A DNA stretch of 12,011 nucleotides from Synergistota bacterium (lineage in GTDB: Bacteria; Synergistota; JAGHAJ01): positions 1 to 12,011 of the forward strand of contig JAGHAJ010000131.1 in assembly GCA_021161545.1 (NCBI GenBank), written 5' to 3'. The number at the start of each line of letters is the position of its first letter. Within the stretch, counting starts at the first letter, position 1. The notes beneath the pieces were generated by a model that ran no database searches, had not been told where the DNA came from, and saw nothing but the letters and a program-made list of their open reading frames with translations. Positions 308 through 12,011 of this stretch are shown here, in pieces. Position numbers and translations under genes: made by a program.

Positions 308-1432
308 ATGAAACTTACAGCAAAAAGACAAAAAGTTACAGAAAAGCTATCTATTATGTCAAAAATAGTCAGGAAAAACAGTATAATGCCGGCCTTAGAG
401 GGTATTATTGTATCTTCCAACTCAGGAGACCAAGTTGAAGTAAAAGGTAGTAACTTAAGAACTAATTTAACTTTGAGGGTAACTGCTACCGTGGAAGGAA
501 GCGGAACACACATCATACCTCTAAAGGGATTATTGGACATATTAAGAAAGTTACCAGATGAATATGTAGTCTTACACTTTAAAGAAAGTGAGGTTAAGTT
601 GTATGCAAAGTCATCAGAATACAGCTTTAGAACGTATATTCCAGATGAGTACCCAGATGTTACATGGAATATAGAAGGAACAAGGCTTTCTATTGCTTCA
701 AAGGATATATTAGAGTGTTTAGGAGAAACCTCATTTGCTACTTCTCCTAACTCGGAGTATGCTCCCTCCTACTCGCAGGGGATTCAGATGGAGGTGTCTA
801 AGGGTAGGATTACTATTGCGGCCTCTGATGGTCAGAGGCTGGCTGTAGGTTACTTTAGTGTGGATGACATCGCTGAAGATATAGGCATATGTGCTATTCC
901 GATACTATCCTTGAATGAAATCACACCTGTGATCAGCGGTAGCGAAATCATTGACCTTATTTTTGGTGATAGGTATGTGGCTGTTGAATCTTCTTTGGGG
1001 GTAGCAGTCCTTAGCAAGCTTAACGTTCGTATTCCTGATTATGGACCTGTGATAAAGAAGGCTACTTCTGTTGACGAGAATGCTGTATTCGATAGGATGC
1101 AGCTTGTTGGAGCACTTGATAGACTCATGTCAGTGTCGTCTGATAGTTACCTTGTTAAGGCAAGCTTTGATGAGACTTCTATCTTTGAGACTGTAGGTCT
1201 CAGCTCTGGAGCTGGTAGTGAGAGGGTTGAGTGTGAGTATAGTGGTAATCCTATAACGGTGCATTTTTCCATAAGGCATGTCTTAGGTGCTTTAAAGAGC
1301 TTAAGCGAGGAAAAGGTTGTATTCTTTATTCAGGATAGTATGGTAGCTATACGCAAGTGTAGTACCGATAACTTTGTGTATGTTGTATCTACTGCATCTG
1401 TAGCTGAAGAAGGTCCTTCAGAGTACGAATGA
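308..1432 (+). CDS. dnaN: DNA polymerase III beta subunit (sliding clamp)
   Basis: The product forms the ring that holds the replicative polymerase and many repair proteins on DNA. The 374 residues match the usual 360-380 and the three-domain layout (about 1-125, 126-250, 251-374). Recognisable family stretches are the N-terminus MKLTAKRQKVTEKL, MPALEGIIV near residue 30 and SNLRTNLTL near 48, which matches the usual TDL core. ATG 308 has a strong site AGGGAGGT at 295-302. Position directly after oriC confirms the call. An odd point: after YVV (358-360) the protein reads STASVAEEG and runs on to 374 with an acidic tail, where most clamps end in an MPMRL-like motif that helps form the partner-binding cleft. 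The first ~450 bp are more A-rich and less G-skewed than the rest of the window. The stop overlaps recF by 4 bp. Confidence 0.93.
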   Translation: MKLTAKRQKVTEKLSIMSKIVRKNSIMPALEGIIVSSNSGDQVEVKGSNLRTNLTLRVTATVEGSGTHIIPLKGLLDILRKLPDEYVVLHFKESEVKLYAKSSEYSFRTYIPDEYPDVTWNIEGTRLSIASKDILECLGETSFATSPNSEYAPSYSQGIQMEVSKGRITIAASDGQRLAVGYFSVDDIAEDIGICAIPILSLNEITPVISGSEIIDLIFGDRYVAVESSLGVAVLSKLNVRIPDYGPVIKKATSVDENAVFDRMQLVGALDRLMSVSSDSYLVKASFDETSIFETVGLSSGAGSERVECEYSGNPITVHFSIRHVLGALKSLSEEKVVFFIQDSMVAIRKCSTDNFVYVVSTASVAEEGPSEYE

Positions 1433-2472
1433 ACTCCATGAAAGTGAGAACTATAGTTGCAGATGGTATAAGAAATTTAAGCTCTATTACAGTTGCCCTT
1501 TCTGATGGATTTAATGTAGTTTATGGTGATAATGCGCAGGGTAAATCTTCTTTGTTAGAGTCTGTTCACATACTTTGTACTTCGTTTTCTTATAGGACAA
1601 AGCGAATAACTGAGATAGTGAATTGGGACAAAGAAAGTGGTTATGTGAGAGGATCTATTGAGGTAGTTTCTCACCCTCATGTAGTTTATGTCTCCTTAAG
1701 TAGTGTGGATGGCAAAAAGCAAGTAGTATTAGATGACAAGAAAGTAAGAGCTACGGACCTCTTTAAGAAGTTTCCGGTAGTCTCTGTCTCAAGGAGCATT
1801 AGAAGCTTTGTCGATGGTTCTCAAGAAGCAAAAAGGAGATTCATAGACTATCTTCTTTTTAGGATAGATCCTGAGTATTCTCTCTTTTATTATAGATACA
1901 TAGAAGTGCTAAAGAACAGAAATCATCTATTAAAGCACTATAGCGAGTCGATGAAGGGTTTGATATCCTCTCTTGGTGAGCAGATGATAGAGTATGGACA
2001 TTATATCCTTGATAGGAGAGTAAAGCTCATAGAGCGCATAAATACGTTTATTGGAAGGACAATGCCTGCTTACATTAAGTATGAGCCTGCATTGATGAGT
2101 GATACAAGAGGCATAATGGATAGGGAGATAAGGATCGGGTATTCCCTGATGGGCCCTCATAGGGATAAAATGCATATACTGATTAAAGATAAGCTATTTG
2201 ATAAGTTCGGCTCATCAGGTGAGAAGGAACTCTATGGTGTCCTGATAAAGATGGCAGAAGTTGAGATACTTCGCGAGCATTATAAATACTGGCCTTTAGT
2301 CATACTCGATGATGTAGATATAATGATGGTTGACAGGTCAAATGTGGCAATGATGTTGGATTACCTCCTTTCAACACCTGTGCAGGTGCTGATTGCTACT
2401 GTGTACCCTAATATGTGGCCTAAGGATGCAAATCTGATACACATGAGTAGGGGGTGTATTCTCGCAGAGTAG
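1429..2472 (+). CDS. recF: DNA replication and repair protein RecF
   Basis: RecF is an SMC-like ATPase that, with RecO and RecR, loads RecA at single-strand gaps. The 347 residues are close to the usual 350-370. Visible motifs are Walker A GDNAQGKS (residues 33-40), the ABC signature SSGE (262-265) and Walker B VILDDVD with acidic D294 and D295. The N-terminus MKVRTIVADGIRNLSS matches the family's opening strand. The stretch after Walker B reads DIMMVDRSN rather than the common SELD-type D-loop, so the ATP interface is divergent. ATG 1429 forms an ATGA overlap with the dnaN stop, which suggests translational coupling. ATG 1438, which starts at MKVRT, fits the family N-terminus as well. Neither has a clear ribosome binding site at normal spacing. 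Confidence 0.9.
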   Translation: MNSMKVRTIVADGIRNLSSITVALSDGFNVVYGDNAQGKSSLLESVHILCTSFSYRTKRITEIVNWDKESGYVRGSIEVVSHPHVVYVSLSSVDGKKQVVLDDKKVRATDLFKKFPVVSVSRSIRSFVDGSQEAKRRFIDYLLFRIDPEYSLFYYRYIEVLKNRNHLLKHYSESMKGLISSLGEQMIEYGHYILDRRVKLIERINTFIGRTMPAYIKYEPALMSDTRGIMDREIRIGYSLMGPHRDKMHILIKDKLFDKFGSSGEKELYGVLIKMAEVEILREHYKYWPLVILDDVDIMMVDRSNVAMMLDYLLSTPVQVLIATVYPNMWPKDANLIHMSRGCILAE

Positions 2473-2491
2473 GTACGGGTCTAAGTGGGCT

Positions 2492-2519
2492 TTGTTGCCG
2501 GTTTTACTTGTGGTATAAT
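2492..2519 (+). promoter_or_regulatory. Predicted extended -10 promoter for dciA
   Basis: TGGTATAAT at 2511-2519 is a perfect extended -10 element (TG, one base, TATAAT). A weak -35, TTGTTG at 2492-2497, matches three of six bases with a 16-bp spacer, as is usual when the -10 is extended. Transcription would begin about 6-7 nt after the hexamer, at or next to the ATG at 2526. It lies in the 53-bp gap after recF and would provide a second transcription start for dciA and the gyrase genes. Confidence 0.65.
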
Positions 2520-2525
2520 ATATTT

Positions 2526-2984
2526 ATGGATTTAACACATGTGGGTGACGTTGTCTTTGGCCAGATTGAAGGGTTGGGTCTAAAGAGGAGATTTATTTTA
2601 GAGTCAATTAGGCATGAATGGTCTAATATAGTTGGTGATGATATTGCTAAGGCTACTTATGCTTATGCGGTTGATAGAGATGTCTTGAAGGTTAAGGTTG
2701 TAGATAACTGCTGGCGCCAGGAGCTTCACTTAAGGAAAGGTGATATCCTCCGCCTTATAGAAGAAAGATTTGGCCAAGGTATACTTAGGGATATTGTTTT
2801 TTCTGTTGGCCGTGTGGCTGGTAAGAGTAGAGGTAGATTGGCTGTTGCTGGTGGAAGTAGTGAGCTTACAGATGCAGAGCTGAGATGGGTAGAGGAGGTT
2901 ATTGGAGGTGTGAGTAATTTAAGACTAAAGGAGATTATGAGAGATACACTGCGAAGCTATATCTCGAGTGGGAGGGGGCATTAG
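2526..2984 (+). CDS. dciA: DciA-like replicative helicase loader/operator (DUF721 family)
   Basis: DciA is the widespread bacterial factor that helps load the DnaB helicase at the origin. The 152-residue product shows the DUF721 pattern: EWSNIVGDDIAKAT (residues 31-44), a hydrophobic strand DVLKVKVVD (52-60) and CWRQELHLRKGDIL (62-75), where a conserved W and an EL pair follow the strand, then an FSVGR stretch. The C-terminal part from about residue 100 is less conserved. The frame is open further upstream to GTG 2454 inside recF, but ATG 2526 is preferred because family similarity starts here and a TATAAT box lies 6 bp upstream. No ribosome binding site precedes 2526, so the transcript may be leaderless. 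Gene order recF-DUF721-gyrB is common in several phyla. Confidence 0.82.
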   Translation: MDLTHVGDVVFGQIEGLGLKRRFILESIRHEWSNIVGDDIAKATYAYAVDRDVLKVKVVDNCWRQELHLRKGDILRLIEERFGQGILRDIVFSVGRVAGKSRGRLAVAGGSSELTDAELRWVEEVIGGVSNLRLKEIMRDTLRSYISSGRGH

Positions 2985-2989
2985 AAGTT

Positions 2990-5033
<2,044 letters not shown>

Positions 5034-5052
5034 TTATGGAGGTTGATAAGAG

Positions 5053-7464
5053 TTGGGACAGATTATTCCGCTAAAAGTAGAAGATGAACTTAAGGTTTCT
5101 TACTTAGACTATGCGATGAGTGTTATCGTGAGTAGGGCACTTCCTGATGTGAGAGATGGTCTTAAACCTGTGCATAGAAGGATCTTATATGCGATGAAGG
5201 AACTCGGGCTAACACATAATAGGCCTTACAGGAAGTCGGCGAGAGTAGTTGGAGAGGTGTTAGGTAAGTATCATCCACATGGGGATACTGCTGTGTATGA
5301 TACTATGGTGCGAATGGCACAGGACTTTTCTTACAGATATGTGCTTCTTGATGGTCAGGGTAATTTTGGTTCGGTGGATGGTGACCCGCCAGCTGCTATG
5401 AGATACACAGAGATACGGATGTCTTCTATAGGGGAAGAGATGCTGGTGGATATAGATAAAGACACTGTGGATTGGGTTCCAAACTTTGACAATAGCCTTA
5501 AAGAGCCAACAGTCCTTCCCTCAAGGATACCAAATCTGCTTATAAATGGTTCTTCTGGGATTGCTGTAGGGATGGCTACAAATATACCCCCTCACAATAT
5601 AAGGGAGATGGTAGATGCACTTGTGTTCTTGATAGACAATCCAGATGCTACTATAGAAGATATTATGATGTATCTTAAAGCGCCGGATTTTCCTACTGGG
5701 GGAATAATATACGGTGGAAAAGGTATTGTTGAGAGTTACAAGACTGGTAGGGGAAAACTTACCTTGAGAGGAAGAATAGTTAAAGAGGTTTCCAAGGGAA
5801 GAGAGAGGTTAATAATTACGGAAATACCTTATGGTGTTAATAAATCGTCTTTGCTTGAGCAGATAGCAGAGATGGTAAAGGAGAGGAAGATCGTAGGTGT
5901 GACGGATCTGAGGGATGAATCTGACAGGAGAGGCATGAGAGTGGTGATTGAGCTGAGAAAGGGGGTTAATCCGGATACTGTTGAGAATCAGCTTTACCAT
6001 CACACCTCTCTTCAGATGACCTTTGGTGTAATACTCTTGGCGCTGGATAATGGTGAACCTAAGGTGTTTAACATAAAGCAGATGATGGAGAAGTATGTGC
6101 AGTTTAGGGAAGAGGTTATAAGAAGGCGGTCTAACTATGAGCTCAGGATTGCACAGCAGAGAGCCCACATAGTTGAAGGGCTAAAAAAGGCCCTTGAACA
6201 TATAGATGAGGTTATTGCGGTGATAAAGAAGTCGTCATCTGTATCTATTGCGCGGGATAGATTGATGGAAAGGTTTTCATTTACGGAAGTTCAAGCACAG
6301 GCCATACTGGATATGCGGCTTCAGAGGCTTACAGCATTAGAAAGGGAGAAGTTAGAAAGAGAGTATAAGGAGCTGATGGATAAGATAGCGTATCTAAGTA
6401 AGGTGCTTTCTGATAGGATGGAGGTACTGAACATCATAAAGGCAGACCTGAGGGATGTGGCGGAGAAGTATGGCGATAAGCGGAGGACTGAAGTTAGGTT
6501 GGATGTACAGAAAGTTGCACTTAGGGAACTTATTCATAAGGAAGATGTGGTGGTCACTGCTACAAAGGCTGGATATCTTCATGTTGTGCCTGTTAGCAGG
6601 TATAGAAAGCAGAGGAGAGGCGGGGTGGGTAGTAAGGGAGTTGTATTGAAGGAAGAGGACTTTTTGGTAAGCGTATCTGCTACTAATACTTTGGCAGACC
6701 TTCTGGTATTTAGTGATGCAGGAAGAGTGTATAAAATAAAGGTGTATGAGATTCAGCAGAAACAGGCGACTAGGGGGATGCATGTAAATAGGCTGTTTTC
6801 CATGTCTGAATCTGAGAGGATTATTGCCATAAAGCAGATGGATTATCCTGAGGGTGGATTTGTTGTGATATTGACTAGATATGGGTATATAAAGAAGATA
6901 CTTCAGAGCGAATTTAAGATGATAAACAGGGCAGGTAAGAGGATTATAAGGCTTAATGAGGGTGATGTGATAGAAAAAGTGCTTTTCTATCATGGTGATA
7001 GTAAGGTGTGTGTTGTTACTGGTGCTGGTATGATAGGTGTGTTTGAGGATAGGGAACTGAGGGTGCTTGGTAGATCTGCTATGGGTGTAAGAGCGGTGAG
7101 ATTAAGGAAGGGAGATAAGGTAGTTGGTGGAGGTGTTTTCAAGACAGTAGGTACTTTGCTTCTCGCTACTGAGAATGGGTTTACCAAGCGTGTAAGTCTT
7201 GCTGATTTCAGGGTTACGCATAGGGGCTCTGTGGGGGTGAGAGGTATAAGGCTGACGGAACGTTCGGGCAGGGTTATAGGTGCATGGATAGTGGATGAGG
7301 ATGATGAAATTATGTTCCTTACCAGGAAGGGTAGGATGGTAAGAATAGAGGCAAAAGAGGTTCCACTTATAAGTAGGACTTCCATGGGACGTATAACGGT
7401 GAGGCTTACAGAGGATGATGAGATAGTAGATGTTAGCGTGGTGAAGAAAGATGAGGATAGCTGA
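5053..7464 (+). CDS. gyrA: DNA gyrase subunit A
   Basis: This subunit cuts and rejoins DNA and wraps it through its C-terminal beta-pinwheel. It is 803 residues, a normal length. The catalytic tyrosine is Y118 in AAMRYTE. The quinolone-pocket region [10 protein letters not shown] has T79 and D83 at the positions of E. coli S83 and D87. The GyrA box QRRGGVG at 520-526 separates gyrase from topoisomerase IV ParC. Repeated pinwheel blades follow to the end. The start is TTG 5053: it is the first start after an in-frame TAA at 5047, it leads directly into the conserved [20 protein letters not shown] region, and GGAGG lies at 5038-5042 with 10-nt spacing. The stop overlaps psd by 14 nt. Confidence 0.97.
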
Positions 7465-8113
7465 GGAAGGCTTGCATGTAGTTTTTGTCCTGTTGGCTGT
7501 AACGGTAACTTTGTTCTTTTTCTCTGTGGTGACTGGAATAGTTGCATCTATCTTCTTTTTGTTTTCTTTGTACTTTTTTAGAGACCCAGAAAGGAAGCTG
7601 CCATCTTTATCCGCTACTGCAGTAATATCTCCTGCAGATGGGAAAATCATAGGGATACAGGAAGTACAGGAGGAGAAGTTTTTGAAGGAAAAGAGGTTGA
7701 AGCTTTCTATATTTATGTCTTTGTTTGATGTCCATGTAAACAGGAGTCCTATTGATGGTGTCGTCAAAGGGATAGAGCACGTACCAGGGAGGAAAGAACC
7801 GGCTTATAAAGAGGATTCCTCTGAGGTCAATGAGAGAAATTATCTCGTTTTAGAGAAGGAAGGGCTTTCACTGCTTATTGTTCAGGTTGCTGGAATAGTA
7901 GCTCGTAGAATAAGATGTCATGTGAAGGTGGGAGATTTTTTGACAAGAGGAGAGAGGTTTGGTATGATAATGTTTGGTTCGAGGGTTGATGTGTACTTAC
8001 CTCTGTCGGCTGAGGTGAAGGTAGTGATGGGGGAGAAAGTCAGGGCGGGTGAAACCGTTTTGGCAGAGCTGGATGCAAAGGGGGTGAGTGGTGATGAAGA
8101 TAAAAAAAGTTAA
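7451..8113 (+). CDS. psd: Phosphatidylserine decarboxylase proenzyme (short, pyruvoyl-dependent type)
   Basis: This enzyme decarboxylates phosphatidylserine to phosphatidylethanolamine at the membrane. The 220 residues match the short Psd form. A hydrophobic anchor spans about residues 8-45. Family motifs are SPADGKI from residue 60, [12 protein letters not shown] with H95, and the self-cleavage site FGS at 175-177. In this site S177 would become the pyruvoyl group of the alpha chain, followed by the usual RVDVYLP. The ATG at 7451 lies inside gyrA with only a weak upstream GAAGAAAG, so translation probably depends on ribosomes finishing gyrA. It overlaps pssA, which makes its substrate. Archaetidylserine decarboxylase-like enzymes share this form, but a bacterial lipid role is far more likely. 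Confidence 0.92.
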
Positions 8114-8822
8114 TATTCTTCCCAATGCACTCACGAGTGGTAACCTCATTTGTGGTTTGCTTTCTATAATGTTAGTCTGGCAGGATAAGTATCTTCCAGC
8201 AGCATGGTTGATATTGGCAGCCATGTTGTTTGATTTTATGGATGGAAAAGTGGCAAGGATGTTAGGTGGTAGTAGTGAATTTGGTAAGGAACTGGACTCC
8301 TTAGCAGATGTAGTCTCTTTTGGTGTTGCACCAGCTTTTTTGATATATGCTACGTACCTCTTTTATTATGGTATAGTGGGCGCATTGGTTGCTTCGTCAT
8401 TTGTAGTGTTTGGTGCATTAAGGCTTGCAAGGTTTAATATACAGAACATTATCGAATACTTCATAGGGCTTCCGATTCCATCGGGAGGAGGTCTTTTAGC
8501 AGGTATAGTGCTCAGTAATTATGCTTTTCATCCTTCGCTGGTTATGGGGCTTGTCATTGTAACGGGGATCATGATGGTTTCAGAGTTCAGATATGCAAAT
8601 CTCAAGCACTTGAATAAGAACAGCGTTGATTGGAGAAGGTTTTTTATGTTCATGTCTGGTATGGGACTGCTTGTTCTGTTGCTTAGGGGAAAACTTGTGC
8701 TGGCAGTGTTTTTGGTGTATCTCGTTAGTGGCCCTCTTGGCGTGGATTGGGAAAAGATGGTGATAAAGGACCACTATCAGATGGATAAAAATGAGGAAAA
8801 TACTGAAGGTGAGGAGGTATAG
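8094..8822 (+). CDS. pssA: CDP-diacylglycerol--serine O-phosphatidyltransferase
   Basis: This membrane enzyme joins serine to CDP-diacylglycerol, giving phosphatidylserine for Psd. The full CDP-alcohol phosphotransferase signature DG-x2-AR-x8-G-x3-D-x3-D is present as D50, G51, A54, R55, G64, D68 and D72. The opening [19 protein letters not shown] is typical of bacterial PssA. Several hydrophobic segments suggest a multi-pass protein, and the total is 242 residues. GTG codons at 8088 and 8091 are also in frame, but ATG 8094 is preferred because a G-rich site (8080-8086) lies 7 nt upstream. It overlaps psd by 20 nt, so the pathway pair is translationally linked. Adjacent phosphatidyltransferases such as PgsA share the motif, but the psd neighbour favours serine as substrate. 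Confidence 0.92.
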   Translation: MKIKKVNILPNALTSGNLICGLLSIMLVWQDKYLPAAWLILAAMLFDFMDGKVARMLGGSSEFGKELDSLADVVSFGVAPAFLIYATYLFYYGIVGALVASSFVVFGALRLARFNIQNIIEYFIGLPIPSGGGLLAGIVLSNYAFHPSLVMGLVIVTGIMMVSEFRYANLKHLNKNSVDWRRFFMFMSGMGLLVLLLRGKLVLAVFLVYLVSGPLGVDWEKMVIKDHYQMDKNEENTEGEEV

Positions 8823-8826
8823 AGAG

Positions 8827-9702
8827 ATGGGGCTTGTTTACATGAATGGTAGTTTTGTTCCGAAAGAGGAGGCAAAGGTCTCGGTCTTTGACCATGGTTT
8901 TTTATACGGTGATGGTGTATTTGAGGGTATAAGAGCTTATGATGGGGTGATATTCCGGCTAAACAGGCATATAAGGAGACTTTACAATTCGGCGAAGGCG
9001 ATAAGGCTGGAAATTCCGATGTCTGAAGAGGAGATGATTAAGGCTACTGTCGAGACAGTTAAAGTTAATAACCTGAGGGACGCGTATATAAGACTTGTAG
9101 TTTCCAGAGGAGAGGGGGACCTTGGATTAGACCCAAGAAAGTGTCTAAGGCCCAATGTGATAATAATTGCGGACGAAATAGTGCTCTTTCCTGAAGAACT
9201 CTACGAAAAGGGTCTTGAGATTGTAACTGCAGCGCCGCGTAAGAATTACGGAGAAGTGCTAAGCCCACAGATAAAGAGTCTGAACTATCTTAGCAGTGTA
9301 ATGGCAAAGATAGAGGCGATAGAGGCAGGTAGAATAGAGGCACTCATGATTACGAGGGAAGGATATGTTGCTGAGGGAACGGGGGATAATGTCTTTATTG
9401 TAAAAAATGGTGTTTTGATGACGCCTCCTCCGTATGTTGGGATCCTTGAAGGCATTACAAGGGAAGCAGTAATGGAGATAGCCCAGGATATGGGTATAAA
9501 AGTCTTGGAGACGCCATTCACAAGATTTGATGTGTATGCTGCCGATGAATGTTTCCTTACAGGTACAGCTGCTGAGATGATACCGGTTATTGCTGTTGAC
9601 GGCAGAAAGATAAACGATGGCGAGGTGGGACCTACCTTTAGGAAACTTTTGCGGAAATTCCGTGAGATAGTAAAAAATGATGGAGTGAAGGTATATGAGT
9701 GA
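8827..9702 (+). CDS. ilvE: Branched-chain amino acid aminotransferase (class IV)
   Basis: This PLP enzyme interconverts leucine, isoleucine or valine and their 2-keto acids, using glutamate/2-oxoglutarate. The 291 residues fit fold type IV. Visible motifs are FDHGFLYGDGVFEGIRAY near the N-terminus, the PLP-binding lysine K150 in QIKSLNYLSS, EGTGDNVF with E183, and a late FLTGTAAEMIPV stretch. ATG 8827 is chosen over the upstream in-frame ATG 8791 because GAGGAGGT (8811-8818) lies 8 nt before it and family similarity begins there. D-amino acid transaminase and aminodeoxychorismate lyase share the fold. The GIRAY motif and the buk and ptb neighbours favour IlvE. It could work in synthesis or in breakdown feeding ptb/buk. 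The stop overlaps buk by 8 nt. Confidence 0.88.
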   Translation: MGLVYMNGSFVPKEEAKVSVFDHGFLYGDGVFEGIRAYDGVIFRLNRHIRRLYNSAKAIRLEIPMSEEEMIKATVETVKVNNLRDAYIRLVVSRGEGDLGLDPRKCLRPNVIIIADEIVLFPEELYEKGLEIVTAAPRKNYGEVLSPQIKSLNYLSSVMAKIEAIEAGRIEALMITREGYVAEGTGDNVFIVKNGVLMTPPPYVGILEGITREAVMEIAQDMGIKVLETPFTRFDVYAADECFLTGTAAEMIPVIAVDGRKINDGEVGPTFRKLLRKFREIVKNDGVKVYE

Positions 9703-10768
9703 TTTTATGGTTCTGGTCATAAATCCGGGTTCTAGCTCAACGAAAACCTCTTTGTTTAGGGGTGAAGAAGAGCTCTGGTCTAAGAAGCTCTTTCACACGA
9801 ACGAGGAGCTCTCTGAGTTTGCTCATATAGTGGATCAGCAGGATTATAGGTATAACATGATAGTTTCTTCCCTTAAGAAAACTGGTTTCGAGATAGACCA
9901 GCTTGATGCGGTTGTGGGTAGGGGAGGACTGCTTGACCCATTGGAGAGTGGGACGTATGTGGTAGATGATGTACTGATTAGGGACCTCAAGCGTGGAAAA
10001 CCCTGGGAACACGCATCGAATTTGGGGGGAATAATAGCGAGAAAGATAGCAGATAGTGTAGGTATCCCTGCTTTTGTTGTTGACCCGGTTTCTGTAGATG
10101 AGTTTGAGGAAGTTTCCCGTATAACTGGTATGCCGGAGATAGAGAAAAGGAGTCTTTCTCATGCGTTGAACATAAAGGCGGTTGTGAGGCGTGCAGCGGC
10201 TAGGATGGGCAAACCATACGATGAGCTTAACTTCATCATTGCTCATTTGGGTGGAGGGATATCAGTTGCTGCACACAAGAGGGGTAGGATGATAGATGTA
10301 AATAATGCGAATGAGTTAGGTCCATTTTCTCCGGAGAGGACGGGGGGATTACCTGCAGTAGATATAATAAAAATGGCGTATTCTGGTAAGTACACATATA
10401 AAGAGCTGAGGTCTAAACTTGTTGGAAAGGGGGGACTTGTTGCTTACCTTGGCACGAATGATGTGAGGAAGGTAAAGGAGATGATAGCCCAAGGGAACAT
10501 GAATGCAGCCCTTGTGTATGAAGCTATGGCTTATCAGGTAGCAAAAGAGATAGGTGCAATGGCTGCTGCATTGGAAGGTAATGTTGATGCCATACTCATT
10601 ACGGGTGGTGTAGCATACAACGGTGACTTTGTGGATATGATAAGAAAAAGGGTGGAATTTATAGCGCCAGTTGAAGTTTTCCCAGGTGAAGATGAGATGC
10701 GAGCCCTTGCCGAAGGCGCGTTGAGGGTGCTTAAAGGAGAGGAAGAGCCGAAACTCTATAAAAGGTAG
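9695..10768 (+). CDS. buk: Butyrate kinase / branched-chain fatty acid kinase
   Basis: This kinase transfers phosphate between ATP and short-chain acyl phosphates, making ATP plus butyrate or a branched-chain acid, or the reverse. The 357 residues fit the family (about 355) and are clearly shorter than acetate kinase. Motifs are the ATPase-fold phosphate loop INPGSSSTKTSLF (residues 9-21), AHLGGGIS (183-190), IDVNNA, and PFSPERTGGLP (210-220), which is characteristic of butyrate kinases. A later ILITGGVAYN also fits the fold. ATG 9695 has GGAG at 9682-9685. ATG 9707, which starts at MVLVINPG, is possible. It is followed 9 bp later by its usual partner ptb. The ilvE neighbour suggests isobutyrate, isovalerate or 2-methylbutyrate as substrates, which is an inference. 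Confidence 0.92.
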   Translation: MSDFMVLVINPGSSSTKTSLFRGEEELWSKKLFHTNEELSEFAHIVDQQDYRYNMIVSSLKKTGFEIDQLDAVVGRGGLLDPLESGTYVVDDVLIRDLKRGKPWEHASNLGGIIARKIADSVGIPAFVVDPVSVDEFEEVSRITGMPEIEKRSLSHALNIKAVVRRAAARMGKPYDELNFIIAHLGGGISVAAHKRGRMIDVNNANELGPFSPERTGGLPAVDIIKMAYSGKYTYKELRSKLVGKGGLVAYLGTNDVRKVKEMIAQGNMNAALVYEAMAYQVAKEIGAMAAALEGNVDAILITGGVAYNGDFVDMIRKRVEFIAPVEVFPGEDEMRALAEGALRVLKGEEEPKLYKR

Positions 10769-10777
10769 GTGTGAATT

Positions 10778-11689
10778 GTGCCTATAAGAACCTTGGATGA
10801 ATTGAAGAATGCGGCAAAGGGTGTGGGAAGGCTTTCTATTGCTATTGCAGTGGCAGATGATAAAGATGTGTTAGAAGCAGTAAAGATGGCAATGGATTTT
10901 GGTATAGTTTCACCTATACTTGTTGGGAGAAAAACAAGGATTGAAACGATGCTGAAAGGCCTTTCGATAAATGTTGCAGATGTAGAGATAGTGGATCTAG
11001 AGGATGATGCTGAGGCATCTTTGGAGGCGGTGAGGCTTGTAAGTAGTGGTAAGGCGTCTTTGCTTATGAAGGGTATGGTAAAGACTGCAACTTTTCTGAA
11101 GGCGGTGCTGAATAAGGAAGTAGGATTAAGGACCGGTAGAATTTTGAGCCATGTCTTTCTAATAGAGCTGCCCTATGCAGGTAGGTTTTATGGAATAGCT
11201 GATGGCGGTATAAATATGTATCCTACGTTACAGGAAAAAGTTCAAATATTACAGAACACGGTGATGCTGTATCATGCCCTTGGTTATGAAATTCCTAAGG
11301 TAGCGGTGTTGGCGGCGGTGGAAGTAGTGAATCCGGATATGCCAGCGACGATAGATGCGGCTGCGTTGTCCAAGATGGTGGACAGGAAGCAGATAAAGGG
11401 AGTGGAGGTAGATGGGCCTTTGGCGTTGGATAATGCGGTTAGTGAGGTAGCTGCGCGGCACAAGGGTATAGAGAGTTCTGTTGCTGGTAAGGCAGACATA
11501 TTGCTCGTTCCTGATATAGAGGTAGGTAATATGACGGGCAAGGTTATGTTGGAGATGTCTGGTGGTAGGGGAGCAGGACTTGTTGTTGGTGCTAAAAGGC
11601 CTGTTGTCTTGACTTCTCGCATAGATACACCTGAGACACGGTTTTTGTCTATCTGTCTTGGTGTTGTTGCTACCAAAATTATAAAATAA
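10778..11689 (+). CDS. ptb: Phosphate butyryltransferase (first copy)
   Basis: This enzyme swaps CoA for phosphate on butyryl-CoA or branched acyl-CoA, giving the acyl phosphate used by Buk. The 303 residues match the Ptb family. The protein follows the family layout: TLDELKNAAKGVG opening, VAVADDKDVLEAV, ILVG, SGKASLLMKGMV near residues 88-99, a GGINMYPTL region, then LLVPDIEVGNM and VVLTSRIDT near the C-terminus. The start is GTG 10778, preceded by AGGTAGG-like bases that overlap the buk stop. It is followed after 17 bp by a second ptb. Codons 70-103 share a nearly identical DNA segment with that second copy, whereas the first 69 codons are much more diverged. Phosphate acetyltransferase is related, but the Buk partner favours butyryl-type substrates. 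Confidence 0.92.
   Translation: MPIRTLDELKNAAKGVGRLSIAIAVADDKDVLEAVKMAMDFGIVSPILVGRKTRIETMLKGLSINVADVEIVDLEDDAEASLEAVRLVSSGKASLLMKGMVKTATFLKAVLNKEVGLRTGRILSHVFLIELPYAGRFYGIADGGINMYPTLQEKVQILQNTVMLYHALGYEIPKVAVLAAVEVVNPDMPATIDAAALSKMVDRKQIKGVEVDGPLALDNAVSEVAARHKGIESSVAGKADILLVPDIEVGNMTGKVMLEMSGGRGAGLVVGAKRPVVLTSRIDTPETRFLSICLGVVATKIIK
10985..11085 (+). repeat. Direct repeat within ptb, copy 1
   Basis: These 101 bases match 11911-12011 with one difference (C at 10997 against A at 11923), including 88 consecutive identical bases. The offset is 926 bp, the tandem spacing of the two genes. The left edge is sharp. The right edge is unknown because copy 2 runs into the window end. Confidence 0.95.
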
Positions 11690-11706
11690 ATCAGGAGGTG
11701 TTCTTT

Positions 11707-12011
11707 ATGATAAAGACGTTAGATGCTTTGTTACAGAGGGCAAGAGATGTTGGCCCTCTAACGATATCTGTTGCGGTGGCACAGGACCTTGATGTCCTTG
11801 AGGCGGTTGATAAAGCAAGGGAAGAGGGAATATGTAAGGCTATCCTTGTAGGTGCCAAAAAGGGGATAGAGGATGAGGCGGAGAAGGGCGGAATAGAGCT
11901 CAAAGATTATGAGATAGTGGATATAGAGGATGATGCTGAGGCATCTTTGGAGGCGGTGAGGCTTGTAAGTAGTGGTAAGGCGTCTTTGCTTATGAAGGGT
12001 ATGGTAAAGAC
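11707..12011 (+). CDS. Second phosphate butyryltransferase, tandem paralog (3' truncated by window)
   Basis: ATG 11707 follows an excellent site AGGAGGTG (11693-11700). The frame is open to the window edge for 101 codons. The product begins MIKTLDALLQRARDVG and aligns without gaps to the first Ptb, shifted by one residue. By hand count about 32 of 67 residues match in the N-terminal part. From EIVD onward 33 of 34 residues are the same. Beyond base 11923 the DNA is identical to the first copy up to the edge. It may differ in acyl-CoA preference or be a recent partial copy. Whether it is full length and intact cannot be seen here. Confidence 0.88.
   Translation, partial: MIKTLDALLQRARDVGPLTISVAVAQDLDVLEAVDKAREEGICKAILVGAKKGIEDEAEKGGIELKDYEIVDIEDDAEASLEAVRLVSSGKASLLMKGMVK
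11911..12011 (+). repeat. Direct repeat within second ptb, copy 2 (cut by window edge)
   Basis: This is the partner of 10985-11085, lying in the same reading frame and at the same place in the protein. It continues out of the window, so its full length is not visible. Confidence 0.95.

Follow-up and report, generated by a model that had tools for sequence, protein, structure and literature searches.

A candidate short gene-conversion tract between anciently diverged tandem phosphate butyryltransferase genes of a Synergistota bacterium

Genes of the ptb locus

The window, i.e., the whole stretch of 12,011 bp that was analyzed, comprises all of contig C115 of the bin (G000:C115, 12,011 bp), and position 12011 is the physical end of this contig. 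Close to this end, the forward strand carries two tandem genes for phosphate butyryltransferase-like proteins. The first, ptb1 (10778 to 11689), is complete, has a GTG start codon, and encodes a protein of the PTA_PTB family (Pfam PF01515; E = 7.5e-50). The second, ptb2 (11698 to 12011; PF01515, E = 1.4e-08), is cut by the contig end after its first 104 codons and is ptb2-like as far as about codon 75. Directly upstream of ptb1, and on the same strand, lies buk (9695 to 10768) for butyrate kinase, the partner enzyme of ptb (TIGR02707 butyr_kinase, 530.6 bits; cut-off, 289.1). Upstream of buk, also on the forward strand, is a gene for a class IV, branched-chain amino acid aminotransferase-like protein (8791 to 9702; PF01063; PRK08320.1, 474.6 bits versus 363; ilvE_I, 346.6 bits versus 245.55). 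As judged by eye from the translations, positions 308 to 8822 contain dnaN, recF, gyrB, and gyrA, then phosphatidylserine decarboxylase- and synthase-like genes, leading up to the ptb operon; by the same reading, this gene series resembles a replication-origin type of neighborhood.

The NCBIfam models for ptb match ptb1 at scores under their curated cut-offs, and only PRK08190.1 scores above its own. PRK05805.1 gave 381.6 bits over profile positions 2 to 299 of 302 (cut-off, 399), and the cut-off of the equivalog model TIGR02706 was not reached (360.6 bits versus 410.5). Among solved structures, the phosphate butyryltransferase 7vg9 is matched by ptb1 over residues 5 to 297 (E = 1.3e-81). Because the neighboring buk scores above its cut-off, ptb1 likely functions as a phosphate butyryltransferase, and we use the name provisionally; with scores below the cut-offs of the ptb equivalog models, the match does not settle the preferred acyl-CoA.

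We searched 100 relatives, all of them related at the level of the same phylum (Synergistota); no sister species was among them, and a scan of the genome contig collection with the window ptb1 found no relative. In a protein tree of 50 sequences, the ptb1 and ptb2 proteins of Synergistota form separate clades (support, 99/98 and 100/99), and the window ptb1 falls in the ptb1 clade. A nucleotide tree that put the window ptb1 beside the ptb2 clade was set aside as a long-branch effect, since the protein tree, which uses a better model, gives ptb1. For the first 72 residues of ptb2, all 16 of the best matches listed were ptb2-clade proteins; a tree of these residues, which has few columns, gave no firm placement. 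By the protein tree, the two clades are older than the Synergistota families sampled; together with the ptb2 matches, this makes ptb1 and ptb2 old neighbors and not the product of a recent duplication. As a separate observation, genome G006 has three ptb genes on separate contigs (L036, L109, and L110), and its L036 copy is the only sequence that groups with the window ptb1 (97/87), both on long branches.

A stretch of silent identity and its counterparts in relatives

Over the 69 aligned codons that precede the stretch of interest, ptb1 and ptb2 share 46% of amino acids, 52% of bases, 35% of third positions, and 19% of whole codons, which bears out the initial annotation, according to which roughly half of the residues match there. 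Among the codons for the same amino acid in this part, 13 of 32 are identical. From codon 72 of ptb2 onward, the picture changes abruptly. Comparing the window with itself at an offset of 926, we found that 100 of the 101 bases of 11911 to 12011 in ptb2 are identical to 10985 to 11085 in ptb1 (both on the forward strand; referred to here as the patch), with matches at 32 of 33 codons and, as had been claimed, at third codon positions as well (33 of 33). The sole mismatch is 10997 C versus 11923 A (CTA for Leu versus ATA for Ile), and the perfect run of 88 bp extends from 10998 to 11085 and from 11924 to 12011. The patch surrounds the codons for the LMKG motif (ptb1 codons 70 to 102). On its left side, divergence outside (52% base identity) gives way to near identity inside (99%), as is typical of a converted tract; its right side is the contig end. 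The switch is as abrupt as first described, but its position, initially given as 10985/11911, can be placed only within 10985 to 10998, because the 12 bases that precede the mismatch encode EIVD, which is possible in both ptb1-type and ptb2-type genes. Similarly, the identity does continue to the edge of the window; this edge, however, is not an arbitrary cut but the end of the contig, so there is no sequence beyond 12011 to align.

Members of the family have a conserved protein sequence in the LMKG region, and one might ask whether constraint on DNA or RNA, or chance, keeps the stretch identical without any exchange. We give this explanation almost no credence. All 32 same-residue codons of the patch are identical, for which the chance is about 10^-13.6 when computed with the codon usage of the window itself; functional constraint is thus insufficient, as had been argued initially. 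Moreover, the corresponding segment of 23 tandem pairs from relatives shows a base identity of 47 to 66% and a third-position identity of 15 to 61%, compared to 99% and 100%, respectively, here. None of the 23 pairs scored has such a patch at this segment, and the pattern was therefore not inherited from the phylum. A silent identity shared by the pairs of distant relatives would have spoken against a recent exchange; the values for these pairs do not.

We also determined the longest identical run between ptb1 and ptb2 in 31 distinct tandem pairs of relatives. In 28 pairs, this run is 11 to 35 bp long; the other three, all from one genus and one of them from Acetomicrobium sp. UBA5826, have runs of 186, 68, and 54 bp. 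In the tandem ptb loci of Acetomicrobium (L014, L015, L016, L105 to L107, L256, and L261 in genomes G010, G088, G018, and G015), the paralogues are 95 to 97% identical at codons 166 to 228, while orthologues across the two lineages of the genus are 78 to 80% identical there. In the segments outside these codons, orthologues are more alike than paralogues. A tree of codons 166 to 228 rejects the ptb2 clade (p-AU = 4.5e-9), and both flanking segments recover it (support, 98 to 100). In G018, the identical run of 186 bp is located in a region inside a 2.1-Mb contig. These comparisons make conversion between ptb1 and ptb2 in Acetomicrobium secure and firmer than the case of the window; Acetomicrobium is the only genus for which this holds. 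The nucleotide tree had hinted at a hot spot of conversion at these codons throughout the phylum; this was not supported, as the segment did not reject separate clades when Acetomicrobium was left out (P = 0.45). In G015, the assembly is broken exactly at the tract, with the same 186 bases at the ends of its contigs C7 and C17. As the same region lies within a contig in G018, an assembly break at a tract of this sort can, by this comparison, indicate that the tract is genuine.

The contig end in a bin of mixed strains

The bin consists of 288 contigs, with a completeness of 82% and a contamination of 3.2%. Protein and DNA searches of the bin did not find the rest of ptb2; the ptb sequences there are ptb1, the start of ptb2, and the ptb1 of a second strain. 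The last is on contig C184 (L007, 1 to 3074; 3,074 bp), which is colinear with 8345 to 11418 of the window, without gaps and with 95.25% identity. From this colinear variant of C115, we conclude that the bin mixes at least two strains. Further overlaps between strains are suggested by three contig pairs (L235/L249, L209/L210, and L092/L194). C184 has an A at the mismatch position of the patch and a G at the position of 11914. Accordingly, the tail of ptb2 is identical to the ptb1 of C184 over 97 bp (perfect from 11915, i.e., 11915 to 12011) versus 88 bp to its own ptb1. Over these 3,074 bp, the two strain haplotypes have their longest identical run, of 106 bp, at 10998 to 11103 (forward strand); this run includes the perfect part of the patch.

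To understand how contigs end in this assembly, we compared the ends of 108 of the 288 contigs. For six contig pairs (L096/L086, L053/L090, L059/L202, L060/L222, L088/L214, and L226/L247), the shared terminal sequence measures exactly 127 bases, which points to a k-mer assembler with a final k of 127. These pairs resemble adjacent nodes of a k = 127 assembly graph and could be neighbors in the genome. Further terminal matches among the 108 contigs include ones of 117, 117, 107, 97, and 97 bp. C202 and C216 represent one region in two strains (95.4% identity over 1,359 bp), and their ends share 107 and 97 bases; ends that run into a homologous contig of the second strain share 97, 107, or 117 bases. 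A MEGAHIT k ladder of 27 to 127 in steps of 10 is a setting in use (PMC6784871). End matches of 99, 96, 95, 70, and 63 bp fall outside this ladder. The final k does not directly explain the end of C115, the shared run being shorter than 127. Rather, looked at post hoc, this end looks like a k-mer merge node at which the path of ptb2 met that of ptb1 at an intermediate k of 97 and was extended no further. Because C115 traverses ptb1 unbroken, the length of the identity probably does not exceed 127 bp by much. Separately, the ends of L051, L063, L054, L232, and L247 and internal parts of L095 and L244 contain imperfect repeats of about 90 to 190 bp that are 91 to 98% alike and possibly belong to dispersed repeat families of this genome.

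These features bear on unequal crossing-over between ptb2 and ptb1, which would have generated a hybrid gene with the start of ptb2 and the end of ptb1 together with a tandem duplication of a 926-bp unit. It predicts an equally sharp change from ptb2 to ptb1 sequence, and neighbors in direct orientation have the right geometry for it. However, a recent repeat of 926 bp would be longer than the inferred final k (127), so that C115 should break where the patch begins in ptb1, but both C115 and C184 run unbroken through this patch. Also, the bin contains no further ptb copy, extra hybrid, or 926-bp repeat, an observation that is not final at a completeness of 82%. The initial annotation had named conversion and unequal crossing-over side by side; with ptb1 intact and the 926-bp repeat missing, the latter appears improbable, and conversion is the better supported of the two.

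The main rival to conversion is an assembly artefact, in which either the assembler would have carried the tip of C115 by mistake from ptb2 into ptb1 sequence or the two genes would have been joined by a chimeric read across 12 shared bases (GAGATAGTGGAT). The patch terminates exactly at the contig end, two strains are mixed in the bin, other contig ends of the assembly also lie in short repeats, and all copies of the patch agree, as they would in a collapsed consensus. The caution about assembly voiced in the initial annotation was thus justified and matters more than was thought, position 12011 being a contig end in a mixed-strain bin. On the other hand, a k-mer walk switches genes only where an exact word at least as long as the smallest k is shared. 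In relatives, ptb2 diverges from ptb1 right after EIVD, and a word of this kind would probably be missing from a genuine ptb2 that lacks the patch. Additionally, the remaining contig ends of this kind reflect true merging of homologous strains, and the comparable break in Acetomicrobium marks a real tract. Because the required exact word is not expected from the ptb2 genes of relatives, we regard a chimeric contig tip as less likely than conversion and, overall, as an explanation of rather low but appreciable probability.

Origin of the patch and comparison with known systems

We favor the explanation that the patch is a short ectopic gene-conversion tract between tandem, anciently diverged phosphate butyryltransferase genes, and assign it a probability of roughly 65%. 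In this scenario, a stretch of at least 88 to 97 bp, around the codons for the LMKG motif, would have been copied from one ptb gene onto the other when an ancestor of these strains underwent recombinational repair; the copying would have erased the silent differences within this stretch and left the left flank untouched. Conversion is favored by the silent identity, the anciently separate paralogues, the lack of a patch in the relatives scored, and the secure conversion in Acetomicrobium, and it also accounts for the sharp left border. The 97-bp match of C115 to C184, which resembles the end matches of merged homologous strains, likewise counts for it. Counting against it are the location of the patch wholly at a contig end in a two-strain bin, the absence of the rest of ptb2 from this bin, and the position of the Acetomicrobium tract at codons 166 to 228 and not at the patch. 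Finally, the patch is the longest run common to the ptb1 genes of the two strains, and a collapse of copies into one consensus could give the same result. Conversion as the mechanism is an inference, and so is the reading of the final 101 bases of the contig as genuine sequence of the genome.

In an attempt to derive the direction of transfer from residue scoring, the patch came out on the side of ptb1 at +13 bits (ptb1 of relatives, +34 to +99; ptb2, −88 to −32). The proteins closest to the patch, next to the window ptb1 itself, are mostly of the ptb2 type, and MKGMVKT is also present in single ptb genes of the ptb2 clade; therefore, we claim no direction. The initial proposal, that the two enzymes may differ in their N-terminal halves and have a core in common, goes beyond the visible part of the identity, which spans only about 100 bp, the remainder of ptb2 being absent from the bin.

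A broader hypothesis, which we advance tentatively and rate somewhat below an even chance, is that tandem ptb genes of Synergistota undergo recurrent ectopic conversion that shifts in position despite their being only about half identical, with an N-terminal tract here and a core tract in Acetomicrobium, such that parts are swapped between otherwise distinct enzymes. If the tract of the window is real, bacterial paralogues that are about 50% alike in DNA would still exchange short tracts, with cases from no fewer than two distant lineages that affect two different parts of one gene. Two practical implications concern assembly and annotation. A contig that ends in a short repeat between tandem paralogues may mark a true conversion tract and not an error, and partial sequences can be a misleading basis for assigning functions to ptb1 and ptb2.

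A literature search on conversion of ptb genes returned no reports. The closest comparison is with the tract of Acetomicrobium, which involves the same tandem genes in the same phylum and, similarly to the patch, has sharp borders, silent identity, and an assembly break at the tract; unlike the patch, it occupies another part of the gene, is longer, and lies inside a contiguous chromosome, making it secure. Outside this phylum, the duplicate tuf genes offer a parallel; these genes are nearly identical and far apart on the chromosome, and a DNA identity of about 52% is low for homologous recombination. Gene conversion between the tuf genes has been described in Salmonella (PMC5485169) and, like the event proposed for ptb, consists of nonreciprocal copying of a tract between two paralogues of one chromosome that leaves other parts of the genes unchanged. 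The ptb genes, in contrast to tuf, are direct neighbors whose DNA upstream of the patch is only about 52% identical, and their event was deduced from sequence rather than observed. Thus, conversion between bacterial paralogues is well known, while the degree to which the ptb genes diverge outside their tracts is less usual.
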